Assembly: GCF_001282685.1 (NCBI RefSeq)
Contig: NZ_LN875035.1
Span: 509,001-573,000, forward strand
Origin: Niameybacter massiliensis
Lineage (GTDB): Bacteria > Bacillota > Clostridia > Lachnospirales > Cellulosilyticaceae
DNA length: 64,000 nucleotides
Direction: 5' to 3'
In this document: positions 9,491 to 45,316 of the stretch, one piece after another
Numbering within the stretch: the first letter of the stretch is position 1
How the letters are laid out: every line of letters begins with the position of its first letter
Made by a program: the position numbers and the translations under genes
Notes under the pieces: generated by a model
What the model was told of the DNA's origin: nothing
The model's input: only the letters and a program-made list of their open reading frames with translations
The model's database searches: none

Positions 9491-12400
9491 TTATTTACTT
9501 TCTACTAAATGAGCCATTCTATAGAGCATTACAGCACTTTCTGCTCGCGTTACATTTTGCTTCGGATAGATCCATACGCCATCACCTTTTATGATTCCTA
9601 TTTCTATTAAGTGTTTAATACTCTCTAGTGCATACGGTGATATAGTATCTATATCCTTATACATATCCCTATTCAGTTCTTTTGTGAATAGGATAGTTTG
9701 AGTGCTTTGTAATATACGATCAATCAATACCATAGCTTCTTCTCTGGTTAAAAATTGATCTGGTTCAAATTTATTGTTGCCAATTCCTTTTACAATACCA
9801 TAACTTCTTGCTTTATGAACTGCTTCAAAATAAGATGCTTCAGGATCTACGTCACTAAAATATTCTACTGTTTGTTCCGATAGATCTACTGCATCCATCA
9901 GTGCTTCAATAAATTGACCACGTGTTACATGCTCTTTTGGTCTAAAATATGTGCTTCCTTGCTTTATCATAATACCCTTTTTAGATAAGTAATCAATAGC
10001 TTCTAAGGCCCAATCAAAGCCTTCTAAGTCTTCATATATGACTTTTTCTTGTTCAACTTTTTCTTTATCAACTGAATGGGTGCCTTCCGCTCCTTCTGGA
10101 TTAGGGCTTGGATTCGTATCTGGTGTTGGATCTGGATCCGGTGTTGGATCTGGATCCGGTGTTGGATCTGGATCCGGTGTTGGATCTGGATCCGGTGTTG
10201 GATCTGGATCTGGTGTTGGATCTGGATCTGGTATTAGATCTGGTATTTTAAGAAGTATAATATCACCAAATCCATTTGGATCCGGTCCAAATCCAATCCC
10301 TTGTCGATATTCAATCCAACCGGTTCTACCTTCTCCATCATTTTCATTAATAAGCAATGAAAAACCTAAGCATGTCTTTTCACTTATTGTTTCACCCTTT
10401 GGTAAGATTTGATTCCACGGAATAGCAATTTCATAATTTGTTTTATTACCTTCTCGTACAATCTGGCATTTAGCATCTAGTACCTCTCCTGGATTATGAC
10501 CATTATCTGCTGCCCAACGCCATTTTGTAATGGTTTCACCATCAAATCCAAAACCAAATTGATGATGTCCTTCTGGAGATGGTCTATTCAAACGATGTGT
10601 GTCTAATGAAAATTGGATACTATCACCTTTCCAAATACCACCACCAAAATCTTCCTGAGAGTGTGTGTCATCTGTAACTTCCATAGACAAATAGAAATGC
10701 TTCTCATCCCATTTGACATACCCTACTCCACTTAAATCTTCTATGCCTTGCCAATTATTATTTTCCTGTACTTGCTCAGCTTTATTAAGGTAGAATGGCA
10801 TACTATCATTCCATTCCATTTCAGTTATTTTCCCATCAATAATAGGTACATTTTTACTTTGTATAGCTGCAAGAAAACTTATTTTTTGATTAATACCTAT
10901 CGTTTCACCATTTTCAAGCTGTACTTTTCCTTGAAGTTCAATGAGATCATCTTGTAAGTCCTTAGGCACAGAAATAAGAATACTTTGTTTGGTTTGTGGT
11001 TGTATACCCTCAAAATTAAACGTCCCCGCCAGTGCTTGTGGCTTTTCTAACACAATATTTCCATCTAATGTAAGTGTCTTCGATTTATTTTCTAATTGAA
11101 TTTGTACACTCCACTCATCCCATTTGCCAACTTCTGATACCATAGGTAGGACACTCACTTGTAATGCATTTTGTACATCTACCTCAAGTGTAACGGCATC
11201 AAATGACTGTTTTTCTACATGGGGTTGTATATTAAATACATACTTACCTATCTTAGAGGTATGTGGAACTTGAATTTTAAGTGTATCGATAGGCCCCTCT
11301 TTACTAAACTGAGTATCCCCTATAACTTTCCAACCCTCAGGTAATGCAAAGCTATAGTATCCTGTAATACCTTCTAGATTCTTTCCCCGCTTAATTTCTA
11401 TATTCAAGCACTCACCTTTTGTAATTTCTTTAAAAGTTTCTAATAGCTTAAAGGCTACATCATCTGTCACTACTTCCCCAACCTCACCTACAATATAGAT
11501 AGGCTCTTTTGAGATAGAAATACTTACTTTACCTCCTAATGATGGAATCACCCTTTCATTTCCAAATAGATCCATCACGGTTACACTTGACTGTGTTGTC
11601 TCAAAAGCTATTGCCTCACCTTGATCTTTGGTAGACCAAGCAACCACTACATCTTCTCCTGTGGAGCGTTTAAAATAATTAACTCTTATTTTATTATCTA
11701 TCATACTATCATTTATAAATCTTGCCGCTTCTAATGCATCAACCATTTGTGCGTAGGCAACGTAGTCAGCTTTTGCTGAGAGTGGTACCGTTGCCCCTTC
11801 ACCTCTGACAAGTCCAAAATTATCTTCATTATTATAAATGTCAGTTCCATCATTTTGTAAGTCATACCAAAAATACTTGTCAACCATCCCAGAAGCTATA
11901 CTTTTCACATAGCTTCTCACTAAATAACTGCCTGCATCAAGCTCAGAAACACCATATTGATCACGTTGAGTTGGCCATCCTAATTCAGTAATCCAAACTG
12001 GCTTTTCCTTACCATATTTTTTTAGAAGATTAAAAGTTTGTTCAATATTATTTTCAAATTTCCCAACATCAGGTGTCATAGGATAGCAGTATGGATGAAT
12101 TGAAATGGCATCCATATCATCAATTGCACCTGCTCGAAGTATTCTTTCAATCCAGTATAGATCCGTCCCTGCTGTTACTCCCCCTACAACTGTACAGTTA
12201 GGGTCTACTTCTTTTAATGTTGCATAAGTCAATTTGAGCAGTTTAGCATAATCCTCTGGAGGTCTCTTCGTTGGATTAAAAGTTCCATTGTACTCATTCC
12301 AAACTTCAAAGTATTTTACACGTCCTTTAAAATGTTCTGCTATAGTCCTTGCATAGTTGGCAAAAGCATTAAGCCCTTCTTCTGTATAAGGTGCACCACC

Positions 12401-14158
12401 TCCATCATAAAATGGATTACCATAGTCTAAAATAATCAATGGTTCCATTCCTCTAGCGATGGCTTCATCTACATACTCATCCCAATGTGGTAATATTTTC
12501 ACCACACCTTTTTCTGTTTCTGCTCGATCCCAGAACATCTCATCTCGAATAAACTGTGCACCCATTTTTTGTGCAACATCTAGATTTTCCGGAATAACAC
12601 CACGGTCTAAACCAAAATGTGTGCATACACCAAAGAAATCATTTATACGTTCTTTAAGTGCTGTTTCTACTTTAGGGATATAGCTAAAATCTACAGTTTT
12701 TTCAATCATTTCATCTGTAAGTTCTGGATCTACATTTAAATACATTTTATAAACACCAAACGCATCCAGTTGATTAACTAAGACAGGAATCGTTTGTTTT
12801 TCGTTTGGTTGTAGCGTAAGAGAGAACTCTCCTGTTGCTATCTGGTCGTTGCGTACATCATTTTCAATGGTATAAGTGACTCTAACGTCTCTTTTTTCAT
12901 CTGAAAGTAAGTTTTCAAGCTGGATACCTAGCTCAACCACATCTCCCTGCGAGAAAATATTTCCAGTATAAGGTGACTTTACTTGTACTGAAATAGGTTT
13001 TATTGGAGGAAGTTTTTTCACTGTAACACTTCCAAAGGCTACGTCTTCTCTTGTACCTATTCCCGGTGCCCATACACCTATGCGAATATCTCTTTCAAAA
13101 AAGCGGTTAGCAAATTTAGCATCGCCTAGTACAAAAGTGTGTGTTTTCCATTCTTTTGTATCTGTTAATTTAACAATTCCAGCTACTTTTTCAGTCTCAT
13201 AAACCGAATCATATTGCACACCAAATTCCGCTGTTCCTTCATCAAAGTACTCTACTGTAAGTTCTACTGTATTTTCTCCATCATAAATAAATCCATCTTC
13301 AACATCACAATAAATAAATAAGGTATTCGCTTTCTCATCTGTTTTCCATCCCTCTTTGCCTCCATAGTTTACAATTTGAATAGCATCTTGATTATCTCCA
13401 GGATTTGCATAAATACCATTAAACTTTGGAATATTTCCAAAGATAACATCTACCTGCTGTCTTTCAGATAAGTCTACTTTCCTTACTTTAATGCTTCCAA
13501 AGGTTACATCTTCCCTTGTACCTATTCCTGGTGCCCATGCACCTATCCTAAAATCCTTTCCAAAGAAGCGATTAGCAAACTTGGCATCTCCTATTGTAAA
13601 CGTATGGGTTTTCCATTGTTTAGTATCTGTAAGTTTTACAAAACCTGCTACCTTTTCTACTTCACCTGTAGAATCATATTGCAAAGCAAATTCAGCTGTC
13701 CCTTCATCAAAGTATTCTACTTCAATTTCCACTGCATTTGTGCCATCAAATATAAAATCATCTGATACCCCACAATATACAAACAGCATATTTTCTTTTT
13801 CATTCGTTCGCCAGCCTTCTTTTCCATCATGTGTAACAATTTGTAAAGCTTCATGATTATCAGCTGGATTTGCATCAATGCCGTTTGCCTCCACTACTTT
13901 CCCTAACTTAACACTGACTTCATTGGTAATAGTTAAAGCACTCGTCGTTGTTATATACTTTGGTATTTGTTCCTCATTACCTGGTTGAATAACAATATTC
14001 CCTGAAGTCGTAGATTGAACCTCTTGTTGAATACTTACTGGTACATCATATGGATGACTTGCCATAGTTAAGTTGGGAAGCATGGTATTTGCTCCTAGAA
14101 CAACACTTAACCCAAGAGCCATTCGTACCTTATAACCTTTCCCAGATACCTTTCTCAT
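9491..14158 (-). CDS. Secreted, SLH-anchored clan-A glycoside hydrolase with two duplicated N-terminal modules
   Basis: 1555 residues. A signal peptide covers about 1-34. Two tandem copies of a ~155-residue beta-sandwich-like module follow (about 70-380). A TIM-barrel glycosidase domain (about 500-800) has the acid/base glutamate E622 in EVWNEYN and the probable nucleophile E725 in WITELGW, as in GH39/GH5-type clan-A enzymes. Beta-rich spacers come next, then a CBM9-like domain (about 1120-1310), a (DPTPDP)n linker, and three S-layer homology domains (about 1375-1555) that would hold the protein to the cell wall. It is the fourth gene of the operon that starts with a sugar-binding lipoprotein at 17526, 22 bases after the second permease. 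That suggests it releases the sugar the importer takes up. The substrate cannot be read from sequence. Confidence 0.92.
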   Translation of the reverse strand: MRKVSGKGYKVRMALGLSVVLGANTMLPNLTMASHPYDVPVSIQQEVQSTTSGNIVIQPGNEEQIPKYITTTSALTITNEVSVKLGKVVEANGIDANPADNHEALQIVTHDGKEGWRTNEKENMLFVYCGVSDDFIFDGTNAVEIEVEYFDEGTAEFALQYDSTGEVEKVAGFVKLTDTKQWKTHTFTIGDAKFANRFFGKDFRIGAWAPGIGTREDVTFGSIKVRKVDLSERQQVDVIFGNIPKFNGIYANPGDNQDAIQIVNYGGKEGWKTDEKANTLFIYCDVEDGFIYDGENTVELTVEYFDEGTAEFGVQYDSVYETEKVAGIVKLTDTKEWKTHTFVLGDAKFANRFFERDIRIGVWAPGIGTREDVAFGSVTVKKLPPIKPISVQVKSPYTGNIFSQGDVVELGIQLENLLSDEKRDVRVTYTIENDVRNDQIATGEFSLTLQPNEKQTIPVLVNQLDAFGVYKMYLNVDPELTDEMIEKTVDFSYIPKVETALKERINDFFGVCTHFGLDRGVIPENLDVAQKMGAQFIRDEMFWDRAETEKGVVKILPHWDEYVDEAIARGMEPLIILDYGNPFYDGGGAPYTEEGLNAFANYARTIAEHFKGRVKYFEVWNEYNGTFNPTKRPPEDYAKLLKLTYATLKEVDPNCTVVGGVTAGTDLYWIERILRAGAIDDMDAISIHPYCYPMTPDVGKFENNIEQTFNLLKKYGKEKPVWITELGWPTQRDQYGVSELDAGSYLVRSYVKSIASGMVDKYFWYDLQNDGTDIYNNEDNFGLVRGEGATVPLSAKADYVAYAQMVDALEAARFINDSMIDNKIRVNYFKRSTGEDVVVAWSTKDQGEAIAFETTQSSVTVMDLFGNERVIPSLGGKVSISISKEPIYIVGEVGEVVTDDVAFKLLETFKEITKGECLNIEIKRGKNLEGITGYYSFALPEGWKVIGDTQFSKEGPIDTLKIQVPHTSKIGKYVFNIQPHVEKQSFDAVTLEVDVQNALQVSVLPMVSEVGKWDEWSVQIQLENKSKTLTLDGNIVLEKPQALAGTFNFEGIQPQTKQSILISVPKDLQDDLIELQGKVQLENGETIGINQKISFLAAIQSKNVPIIDGKITEMEWNDSMPFYLNKAEQVQENNNWQGIEDLSGVGYVKWDEKHFYLSMEVTDDTHSQEDFGGGIWKGDSIQFSLDTHRLNRPSPEGHHQFGFGFDGETITKWRWAADNGHNPGEVLDAKCQIVREGNKTNYEIAIPWNQILPKGETISEKTCLGFSLLINENDGEGRTGWIEYRQGIGFGPDPNGFGDIILLKIPDLIPDPDPTPDPDPTPDPDPTPDPDPTPDPDPTPDPDPTPDTNPSPNPEGAEGTHSVDKEKVEQEKVIYEDLEGFDWALEAIDYLSKKGIMIKQGSTYFRPKEHVTRGQFIEALMDAVDLSEQTVEYFSDVDPEASYFEAVHKARSYGIVKGIGNNKFEPDQFLTREEAMVLIDRILQSTQTILFTKELNRDMYKDIDTISPYALESIKHLIEIGIIKGDGVWIYPKQNVTRAESAVMLYRMAHLVESK
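10122..10229 (-). repeat. Six tandem 18-bp units coding a DPTPDP linker
   Basis: Six consecutive 18-base copies. The first four (in + coordinates) are identical and the last two differ by one base; a degenerate seventh follows. They encode the proline-rich linker between the CBM9-like domain and the SLH domains of the glycosidase. Near-identity of the units suggests recent slippage or expansion, so copy number may vary between strains. Confidence 0.95.
13020..13949 (-). repeat. Two direct 465-bp copies (155-residue module)
   Basis: Equivalent positions recur at a 465-base spacing (for example the CTTCCAAAGG at 13029 and at 13494). The encoded modules share long identical stretches such as YFDEGTAEF, GDAKFANRFF and WAPGIGTREDV. 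It is a tandem, in-frame duplication inside the glycosidase gene. Confidence 0.9.
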
Positions 14159-43126: not shown

Positions 43127-43711
43127 TTATCCTATACTTTCAACTAAATCCATCATTTCTTGTTCATTTAATGCCTCTTGGCTCCTTATGGAGTAAGTAT
43201 AAGTACCGTCTGTCCATACTGCTAAATAAATACCACTAGAATCACCTTTTAATGTAACCTCATCCCATTTACTATCCACATCTTCTTCTAGTGGATAATC
43301 CGTATAATCTCCACTGATGTCCTGTGTACCTTCAGCCATACGATAAGTGATTTCATTGGTAGAACTTGCATATACCACTTGTGCTATATGCCCATCTATA
43401 GTTGAAAAACTACTCCTCATATAGTCACTCGGAATAATAGGTAACTTTAATGTGAAAGGTAATGCAGCCTCAAGTTCTTCTAACGTTGCGTATTCTATAA
43501 TAGGATTTGGCATACTTATAGGCATTTCTACTACTCTTTCAACAGGTTCTTCATCTACTACTACATCTATACTTTCTGATTGCTCATTCTCTACTACTTC
43601 ACTTTCTTCTTTTTGTGAAGCTTGTGTCATACTTCTGAAAACAAGACCAGCTATCAAAATACTTCCTAATCCTAGTCCAGATTGCATTGATTGTTGACTA
43701 TGACGTTGCAT
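43127..43711 (-). CDS. Hypothetical membrane-anchored protein with DUF4367-like C-terminal domain
   Basis: 194 residues. A hydrophobic segment at about 11-27 (a weak signal anchor) is followed by a very acidic linker (30-65) and then a compact domain of about 110 residues ending in a YTYSIRSQEALNEQEMMDLVESIG stretch. That ending resembles the DUF4367 domain often found at the outer end of anti-sigma or sensor-like membrane proteins in Clostridia; the match is by eye. GGAGGT precedes the start. No partner gene is adjacent, so the role is unknown. Confidence 0.6.
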   Translation of the reverse strand: MQRHSQQSMQSGLGLGSILIAGLVFRSMTQASQKEESEVVENEQSESIDVVVDEEPVERVVEMPISMPNPIIEYATLEELEAALPFTLKLPIIPSDYMRSSFSTIDGHIAQVVYASSTNEITYRMAEGTQDISGDYTDYPLEEDVDSKWDEVTLKGDSSGIYLAVWTDGTYTYSIRSQEALNEQEMMDLVESIG

Positions 43712-43779: not shown

Positions 43780-45165
43780 CTATTTCTTATAAATAGATGT
43801 TCTTACTGGTAGCATCTCTTCTACCCATTCATTGGTTTCTCTGTCATAGAACTTCGTATCTGAATTCACTGCAAAAGGTATGCCTGCCTCTATTAATTGT
43901 TCACTCATATATGTTGCAAAGACTACTTGTTCATGAATCGTATAATCATTTCCATCATTATAGTTACCTGGCATCCAAGCACCTACCCATGTTGGTATAC
44001 CTGTTGATTGTTGCCATTCAAGTGCTAAATCAATCTTTTCATTGATAAGTGCTTTTTCTTCTTCTGTTCCTATGGCCCATAGCTTACGCTCATTGGTCTT
44101 ACTCGGTCCTGAAGCATAAAAATGCCATTGGGCCATTAAGTAGCCATTATAATCTGTTGGTATGTTAAGTTCACTTAGATACGCCGCATCCGAACGCAAT
44201 CGTGGTGAAATCATAATAATCCTTGTTGGATTTGTTTGACGAATCGCTGTTACAATACGTTCATAAATTTTATTTAATTTCTCTGGTTGCTTATTCAGTG
44301 TATCTGTTGCTTCAATAAGTAAATCAAAGGAAAGAAGATGAGAAACATCTTTATAACGTTCGGCAACTGTTTCCCACCACTTTACCACCTTTTTAATATT
44401 CTTCTCACTCGGTTCATTTTTAAATTCATCTGCTTGATATGCAATGATAGGTATTAAACCTACTTCAAGACAATCTTCTATCTGTTGATCTAAGCTTTTA
44501 AAGAGTTCTTCATCTGCTTCATCTTTTACTCTAATGCGTACATGGCTAACACCTGCAGCTTTAAAGTCTTGTGCAGCTTGTTTATTATAAGACTTACGTC
44601 CTTGTTCCGTTTTAGACCAGTCTACATCCATCCCTTTTCCTAATAACCCTTGATAACGCCATGGATCAATTGGACCTTCTGCTTCTTGTTTATTTGTAAT
44701 ATAAGTAATCCCATTTTCAAAGTTCACTTCACAACCTAGATTTTCTGTTACAAATCGTAAAGGTACATAAGTTCTATCATTTCTTAAACTTGCTGTCGTG
44801 GAATATACAGGCACCCCCTCTCTCTCATCAATATATACTTGTTTGCCATTGATGGTTGCCTCTGGGCTTCCTATTTGTAGAGATATATGGTTATTACCAT
44901 CCTCTACTGTTACTCTTCCTGCTAAAGCATCCCATCCTGTTTTATACCCTAACCTTTCTGCCATAAGACGTAGCGGTACATGTGTACGTCCCTCTATGGT
45001 TATAGGTACACCTGTTGTAGCATCAAACTCTACTTTGACACCCTCTACAACAATATCCCCTGGCAAAGGTTGTCCATAAACCCTATACTGCTGATTTAAA
45101 AGTATTGTAGCACCAAGTAACCCACAGGCTACCTTCTTATGTATAAGCATTCTATTTCCTCGCAC
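43780..45165 (-). CDS. Secreted protein: copper-amine-oxidase-type stalk domain plus GH5-like barrel lacking the nucleophile
   Basis: 461 residues. A signal peptide (to about residue 31) is followed by a PF07833-type domain (about 33-155, motifs TIEGRTHVPLRLMAERLGY and NDRTYVPLRFVTENLG) that usually tethers or spaces surface proteins. From about 165 a GH5-like TIM barrel follows. E285 in DLLIEATD takes the place of the acid/base NEP glutamate, and WHFY is the conserved histidine strand, but the strand that should carry the nucleophile reads IPTWVGAWMPG with A396 where a glutamate is expected. The protein may thus be a glycan-binding pseudo-enzyme. The start chosen is GTG 45165, five bases from AGGAGG; ATG 45150 is an alternative. 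Monocistronic by appearance. Confidence 0.82.
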   Translation of the reverse strand: MRGNRMLIHKKVACGLLGATILLNQQYRVYGQPLPGDIVVEGVKVEFDATTGVPITIEGRTHVPLRLMAERLGYKTGWDALAGRVTVEDGNNHISLQIGSPEATINGKQVYIDEREGVPVYSTTASLRNDRTYVPLRFVTENLGCEVNFENGITYITNKQEAEGPIDPWRYQGLLGKGMDVDWSKTEQGRKSYNKQAAQDFKAAGVSHVRIRVKDEADEELFKSLDQQIEDCLEVGLIPIIAYQADEFKNEPSEKNIKKVVKWWETVAERYKDVSHLLSFDLLIEATDTLNKQPEKLNKIYERIVTAIRQTNPTRIIMISPRLRSDAAYLSELNIPTDYNGYLMAQWHFYASGPSKTNERKLWAIGTEEEKALINEKIDLALEWQQSTGIPTWVGAWMPGNYNDGNDYTIHEQVVFATYMSEQLIEAGIPFAVNSDTKFYDRETNEWVEEMLPVRTSIYKK

Positions 45166-45316
45166 TATTGCCTCCTAAAATTTGCTGTTTACCTTTTTAT
45201 TTGAAACTTTTTTCGAACTTAATTTTATATCTATCTTTATATTATTTCTTGTATTTACTCTCACTAATTTATTTATCTTTATATCTTATTTGCATTTACT
45301 CACTCCTTTTTATGCT

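Follow-up and report, generated by a model that had tools for sequence, protein, structure and literature searches.

The canonical double displacement of GH5 enzymes, as of clan GH-A, requires both glutamates, the nucleophile and the acid/base. GH5 enzymes also conserve an asparagine preceding the acid/base, a pair of histidines on beta3 and a tryptophan on beta8 – residues that line subsite -1. Glycosynthases need activated donors.

Several described proteins depart from this scheme. The 2012 GH5 classification of Aspeborg et al. (PMC3526467) names a number of catalytically dead GH5 groups. It describes GH5_30, a fungal subfamily of 5 sequences in which all members lack the catalytic residues, and Rsi24C of Clostridium thermocellum, a cellulose-binding anti-sigma factor with a GH5 module that lacks the acid/base. 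Glycosynthases are engineered retaining glycosidases without a nucleophile, which is, for example, changed to alanine (PMC10591481). Some GH relatives without catalytic activity simply bind glycans (PMC7828330). The C-terminal domain of PgaB, a periplasmic GH-like barrel without the catalytic motifs of related GHs, was at first regarded as inactive but turned out to be a glycoside hydrolase (PMC5933820). PgaB thus counsels caution against calling a family dead from motifs alone, and the pseudoglycosidases and Rsi24C counsel caution in the opposite direction.

We analyzed a gene within a 64-kb stretch of the Niameybacter massiliensis genome (contig NZ_LN875035.1), referred to below as the window, to which all coordinates belong unless another locus is named. 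The features of the gene are as follows.

43780..45165, minus strand: whole gene, for a likely secreted or surface GH5-fold protein of 461 aa with a GTG start (ORF, Pfam; export judged by eye)
45171..45176, minus strand: AGGAGG, likely ribosome-binding site, 5 bases ahead of the GTG (sequence)
44710..45048, minus strand: Cu_amine_oxidN1 domain PF07833, residues 40-152 (Pfam E=4.5e-26)
43783..44688, minus strand: GH5-fold barrel domain as modelled, residues 160-461 (AF2 pLDDT 94.1; CtCel5E Z 33.1)
44620..44622, minus strand: D182, end of beta1, a new carboxylate, Asp in 80/80 aligned rows, with L085 not homologous there (alignment)
44530..44538, minus strand: R210, the canonical GH5 arginine, and R212, new, on beta2, each in 79/79 rows (alignment)
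44428..44436, minus strand: Q244-A245-D246, of which Q244-A245 replace the beta3 His-His of GH5 (alignment to CtCel5E)
44311..44313, minus strand: E285, acid/base position, Glu in 80/81 rows, Asp in L124 (alignment)
44122..44130, minus strand: Q346 (Glu in 74/81 rows, Gln in 7/81) and H348 (81/81), on beta6 (alignment)
43978..43980, minus strand: A396, nucleophile position, Gly in 55/80 and Ala in 25/80 rows (alignments)
43858..43866, minus strand: N434, replacing the beta8 tryptophan (80/80), and D436 (78/80) (alignment)

The reading frame is open throughout. Codon-by-codon numbering placed E285 on GAA (44313-44311), H348 on CAT and A396 on GCT (43980-43978), and confirmed W347-H348-F349-Y350 within the protein. 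An initial annotation, made from the sequence alone, had described a GH5-like barrel with an acid/base-like E285 and an alanine, A396, in the nucleophile position, fused to a copper-amine-oxidase-type domain. Both domains were borne out. The Pfam Cellulase/GH5 family PF00150 matches residues 178-423 (E=3.4e-21; 76.4 bits against a cut-off of 23.5), and Cu_amine_oxidN1 precedes it; each match clears its cut-off by a wide margin. A DUF807 match falls below its cut-off, and Pfam searched up to E=10 returned no anti-sigma domain on the chain.

Consistent with the PF00150 match, an AF2 model of residues 160-461, built with 41 aligned sequences, forms a full barrel. Its best VIA match, among many tied rows, is CtCel5E (5byw; Z 33.1, rmsd 2.3, 280 residues). 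We also modelled a relative from Salmonella enterica subsp. diarizonae, which was predicted to adopt the same fold (pLDDT 85.8, with residues 307-336 under 50) and matched 5byw with Z 32.3 and rmsd 2.4 over 279 residues. As modelled, both proteins are thus (beta/alpha)8 barrels of GH5 type. The best 50 matches of each fold search (VIA and Foldseek) were GH5-type enzymes, judged by title, and no metal-site family was among them.

The closest described structures are those of CtCel5E from C. thermocellum (deposited as Endoglucanase H; 4u3a, 4u5i, 5byw) and Cel5A from Thermotoga maritima, which share the same GH5 barrel (Z 31-33) at 21-27% identity to the window protein among the structural alignments listed. 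In phmmer and profile alignments to solved structures, FDLLIEATD, which contains E285, aligned with FEIMNEPFG of CtCel5E, and WVGAW aligned with YFGEF of the wild-type enzyme (4u3a). A396 falls opposite E314, which we take to be the CtCel5E nucleophile, and opposite an alanine in 4u5i, whose title reads CtCel5E E314A. The acid/base glutamate, the beta2 arginine and the beta6 histidine of both enzymes are in register with the family, whereas E314 of CtCel5E is replaced by Ala or Gly, its His-His by Gln-Ala, the Asn of its NEP motif by Tyr or Ile, and its beta8 Trp by Asn.

To follow the nucleophile position across relatives, we aligned 91 loci with the window protein, giving 92 rows, of which 82 are distinct when the window is counted. 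Of these, 68 came solely from a scan seeded with the short patterns GMDVD and IPIIAYQA, neither of which overlaps the nucleophile column, and 14 came from BLAST-type searches. Two rows (L135, L136) end at contig edges ahead of the column. The remaining 80 rows hold glycine (55) or alanine (25) and never glutamate. We placed distant GH5 sequences on the same family alignment as a control: 21 loci gave 19 rows (L058 and L060 gave none), of which 18 have glutamate in this column; the exception, a lysine in L046, lies in a row that is poorly aligned over the last strands. The acid/base column is glutamate in all 19. A second control set has glutamate in 16 of the 16 rows reaching the column, two of which duplicate places already counted, and two further rows end short of it. 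Set against these controls, the absence of glutamate from all 80 family rows argues that Ala or Gly at position 396 is not due to chance.

The initial annotation had pointed to two ways in which its reading of A396 could fail, namely orthologues with glutamate or a different glutamate in the nucleophile place. The family rows contain no orthologue of the first kind. Nor does any column between residues 386 and 413, the same strand and loop, hold an acid family-wide, so we rejected a replacement acid there; the best candidate, column 401, is Glu or Asp in 54 of 80 rows and Asn in 22, including the window. We likewise rejected E346 as a new nucleophile: the position is glutamine in 7 of 81 rows, the window among them, and a glutamate is therefore not required. 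Since double displacement needs both glutamates and the nucleophile is Ala or Gly in every row, the canonical two-glutamate route would be unavailable, and we consider a canonical retaining mechanism very unlikely on the strength of these alignments.

The loss of the nucleophile is not the only change. E285, at the end of beta4, is kept almost throughout, as the initial annotation had supposed for the window protein. The other residues of the conserved GH5 set are gone: the asparagine preceding the acid/base is Tyr (54/81) or Ile (26/81), the beta3 histidines are Gln (78/80) and Ala (79/80), and asparagine stands in place of the beta8 tryptophan in every row. The beta6 tyrosine is Phe in 56 of 81 rows and stays Tyr in 24. 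Further acids are close to invariant (D180 in 78/80, D281 in 79/81, E370 in 80/80), with R322 (76/82), R324 (77/82) and D246 (73/80) somewhat less so. The two exceptions at D436 are a glycine in a Bacteroidales member (L084) and an asparagine in one Citrobacter member (L114). The apparent invariance of D180, D182, Q244 and A245 is partly built in by the seeding that supplied 68 of the 82 rows, and the L085 frame is non-homologous around D180 and D182, where its letters carry no meaning. Fifteen rows lack the first seed, and the 13 of these that reach column 182 all have Asp (L085 among them); 34 lack the second, and 30 of the 32 that reach column 244 have Gln. The 13 BLAST-type rows that reach all of these columns agree at every one, except for Ala or Gly at 396.

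Residues 284, 350 and 396 read Ile/Tyr/Ala in 24 non-enterobacterial rows (Ile/Cys/Ala in L083) and Tyr/Phe/Gly in 53 enterobacterial rows (Asp/Phe/Gly in L110), with three rows incomplete. This swap divides the Enterobacteriaceae from all other members and could reflect a single event, and is thus not evidence of co-evolution. Because the beta8 tryptophan, the histidine pair and the asparagine are replaced along with the nucleophile, the pocket appears to have been rebuilt rather than merely disarmed, and we read the alignment as that of a pocket rebuilt and later retuned, not one that is decaying.

Consistent with this reading, dN/dS was 0.064-0.224 in nine of ten close pairs of relatives (the window is in no pair, and the tenth was saturated). 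On the hand-assigned C-terminal face of the barrel (DSSP of the AF2 model), which holds the pocket, the mean frequency of the top residue was 0.74 among 31 representatives, against 0.58 for helices and 0.64 for the N-terminal face, a difference that none of 20,000 permutations reached. The representatives exclude rows shorter than 240 letters or more than 85% alike. In a midpoint-rooted tree of the same 31 with six canonical GH5 rows, the Ala/Gly rows lie on one side of a 100/100 branch, although branches within the group are often unresolved and a long-branch warning applies. These sequences form one group of GH5-fold proteins under purifying selection, in which Ala or Gly replaces the beta7-end glutamate in every row reaching the column.

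The family is widely spread. Among 392 genomes of the same order, strong matches were found in 10 – the window's own and nine from one other family (f17) – and another 35 genomes had only weak matches (E 1e-11 or worse). The window's own genome gave the sole strong match among 398 genomes sampled from its phylum, and a Thiothrix genome the sole strong match among 369 genomes sampled from its class. A scan of one genome per species, seeded by the two short patterns and so restricted to members carrying either, returned 77 loci in Oscillospiraceae, other Clostridia and many Enterobacteriaceae, with single members in Anaerolineae, Bacteroidales, Sulfurospirillum, Thiothrix and Atribacteria. All ten relatives scanned passed the PF00150 cut-off. 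At the DNA level E. coli lacks the gene: in none of 5,426 genomes did a match span 80% of the Enterobacter sequence, and the E. coli matches listed align only with its 3' end, annotated emrD. In one f17 genome a copy of the family gene is broken, split across frames with several stops (L040/L086), and in Enterobacter sp. EA-1 (L138) the matching open frame holds the second half only.

Records in plasmid and phage collections added members in Enterobacter hormaechei, in Salmonella (STM3799 by record notes) and on a faecal contig labelled 'Bacteriophage sp.'; the Enterobacter record labels its member 'cellulase family glycosylhydrolase'. The faecal contig (L064; MT838645.1) is 5.7 kb long and encodes a member with 65% identity over 99% of the query. 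By eye, its upstream frame resembles the end of a transposase, and the contig may be bacterial DNA. The phage-collection records that carry the gene are AGRM01000003, AFYI01000003, OR851026 and OR845850. Of these, AGRM01000003 and AFYI01000003 are >500-kb contigs from Salmonella genomes, so this collection includes bacterial sequence. Among 31 stretches of viral contigs, none encoded a relative.

We examined architecture and genomic context for clues to function. Three of the four f17 members scanned also carry Cu_amine_oxidN1, but all six full frames scanned from other Bacillota, Anaerolineae and Sulfurospirillum lack it; its fusion to the barrel is not general in the family. SLH domains occur in two Oscillibacter relatives (Pfam SLH matches in L078 and L085), an fn3 match in L081 falls below the Pfam cut-off, and the enterobacterial frames hold little besides the barrel and little ahead of it. 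Judged by eye, the N-termini of 14 of 17 members appear to direct export (L068, L082 and L085 could not be judged), and six look like lipoproteins (L066, L067, L071, L079, L083, L087). The window protein probably displays its barrel and Cu-amine-oxidase-type domain on the cell surface, and its relatives seem to be anchored as lipoproteins, attached through SLH domains or exported to the periplasm.

No shared gene neighborhood pointed to a substrate, either among the ten scanned neighbors in the window or, by eye, around 11 relatives. The ten window neighbors include a nucleoside hydrolase, a PfkB kinase, a purine-type permease, a DUF1893 protein and PNPase, and no carbohydrate-polymer genes. 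Directly downstream of the GH5-fold gene, a 194-aa ORF (43127-43711, minus strand) begins with a hydrophobic N-terminal stretch and matches no Pfam family. Elsewhere in the window, 9491-14158 (minus strand) encodes a second glycan-related surface protein, of 1555 aa, in which a Glyco_hydro_cc core at residues 604-788 is combined with a CBM9-like domain and three SLH stretches. D-serine genes flank the family gene in the Enterobacter record and in one of the two Salmonella records, not in the second. The family gene runs convergently into an MFS transporter gene in one Enterobacter record (L061 11944-13017), where the transporter is emrD, and in two Salmonella records (L062 and L063 7914-8999); the overlaps at its 3' end measure 83 and 74 bases. 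In the diarizonae model, confidence is low over the final 30 residues.

How does the family relate to the GH5 groups and mutants described above? GH5_30 is likewise a GH5 group whose members all lack intact catalytic machinery, but it is fungal, whereas the window comes from a prokaryote genome and the family as surveyed here is bacterial, spans several phyla and keeps its acid/base; by description, the two differ. Rsi24C, as described in PMC3526467, is also a surface GH5 module minus one catalytic glutamate, yet it has lost the acid/base, and here the nucleophile is lost, the acid/base is kept and the window protein carries no anti-sigma domain. Glycosynthases as described in PMC10591481 are altered in a like manner at the equivalent functional position, but they are laboratory mutants, whereas the change in this family is natural and old and sits in an otherwise different pocket. 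PgaB resembles the family by its description as a GH-like barrel with missing motifs. None of the dead groups considered from Aspeborg et al. (PMC3526467) fits this family, and the main text contains no mention of 'Salmonella'; a CAZy subfamily number may exist. Searches of the open-access literature on non-catalytic GH5, pseudoglycosidases, the annotation name, GH5 with Salmonella or emrD, and clan GH-A without a nucleophile found no description of the family among the titles and abstracts listed, and STM3799 was in no paper there. Catalytically dead GH5 groups as such are already known.

What, then, might these proteins do? The initial annotation had proposed a sugar-binding pseudo-enzyme or an unusual mechanism. 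The premise, a lost nucleophile, held; simple loss of catalysis became only one option once the beta8 tryptophan, histidine pair and asparagine were found to be replaced too. A local mutation, a sequencing error or a decaying duplicate of an active GH5 enzyme would fit a GH5 match alone, and broken copies do exist in other genomes, but the orthologue survey rules out mutation or error (Ala or Gly in 80/80 rows). Decay is at odds with dN/dS well below 1 in nine pairs of relatives, none including the window, and PF00150 matches nothing else in the window's genome, which leaves no active GH5 enzyme there of which the gene could be a surplus copy. We give this explanation a negligible probability. 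Another alternative is that the pocket serves no carbohydrate at all and binds a protein or a small charged ligand, or holds a metal at D180/D182, E285, H348 and D436. Charged Asp and Arg residues in place of the aromatic and His residues of GH5 would suit this, as would the lack of carbohydrate-polymer genes among the ten window neighbors and of shared neighbors around the 11 relatives. It would leave the retained GH5 catalytic arginine, glutamate and histidine unexplained, and we think it improbable.

A stronger contender is that the barrel binds a glycan or other ligand at the surface or in the periplasm – in adhesion, sensing or capture – and performs no chemistry. The family-wide loss of a residue essential to catalysis in the parent family, the surface-type modules (Cu_amine_oxidN1, SLH and the sub-cut-off fn3) and the precedents of GH5 modules with lost catalytic residues, including Rsi24C (PMC3526467), and of pseudoglycosidase lectins (PMC7828330), as far as these sources describe them, all speak for it. 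However, the acid/base glutamate, beta2 arginine and beta6 histidine are nearly always kept and the subsite -1 residues replaced, the opposite of the pattern expected if catalysis were lost and sugar binding retained, and the enterobacterial frames hold little besides the barrel. We regard pure binding as a serious possibility that falls somewhat short of probable. Our slight preference is for an enzyme whose mechanism has been rebuilt. The family keeps its acid/base in nearly every row but not the residues of subsite -1; its retention in 80 of 81 rows despite the lost nucleophile is not obviously needed by a pure binder; and D182 and E285 stand out as the two carboxylates with hardly any variation in the putative pocket. 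Against an enzyme, loss of the beta8 tryptophan and both beta3 histidines removes much of the known -1 subsite, D246 and E346 vary, D436 is not invariant, and E285 is Asp in L124.

In the favored reading, these proteins would be carbohydrate-active enzymes in which the nucleophile or base role has been taken over elsewhere, a proposal to which we assign just under an even chance. E285 would act as general acid on a glycan held in a rebuilt, strongly charged pocket formed by D180, D182, R210, R212, D246, H348, N434 and D436. Another conserved carboxylate would supply the nucleophile or base, with D182 on beta1 the best candidate and D436 next; alternatively, water or the substrate itself could act in the space freed by Ala or Gly. 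Were D182 to serve as a base on the opposite side of the pocket from E285, the reaction could be inverting. A bolder proposal, which we consider rather unlikely, is that the family is a natural, old branch of clan GH-A without the usual nucleophile, in which E285 protonates or deprotonates and the attack comes from a water held by D182, from another anion or from the substrate. If true, an inverting or natural glycosynthase- or transglycosylase-like enzyme would exist inside a clan known for retention, in a branch spanning gut Clostridia, Enterobacteriaceae including Salmonella, and several other phyla.

If these proteins are enzymes, they would represent a departure from the shared mechanism of clan GH-A and a natural counterpart of the engineered glycosynthases. 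If they are binders, they would constitute a recognition protein that is conserved widely among gut bacteria and relatives of Salmonella. Either way, and notwithstanding the 'cellulase family' annotation, the textbook cellulase reaction would be unavailable to every member examined.
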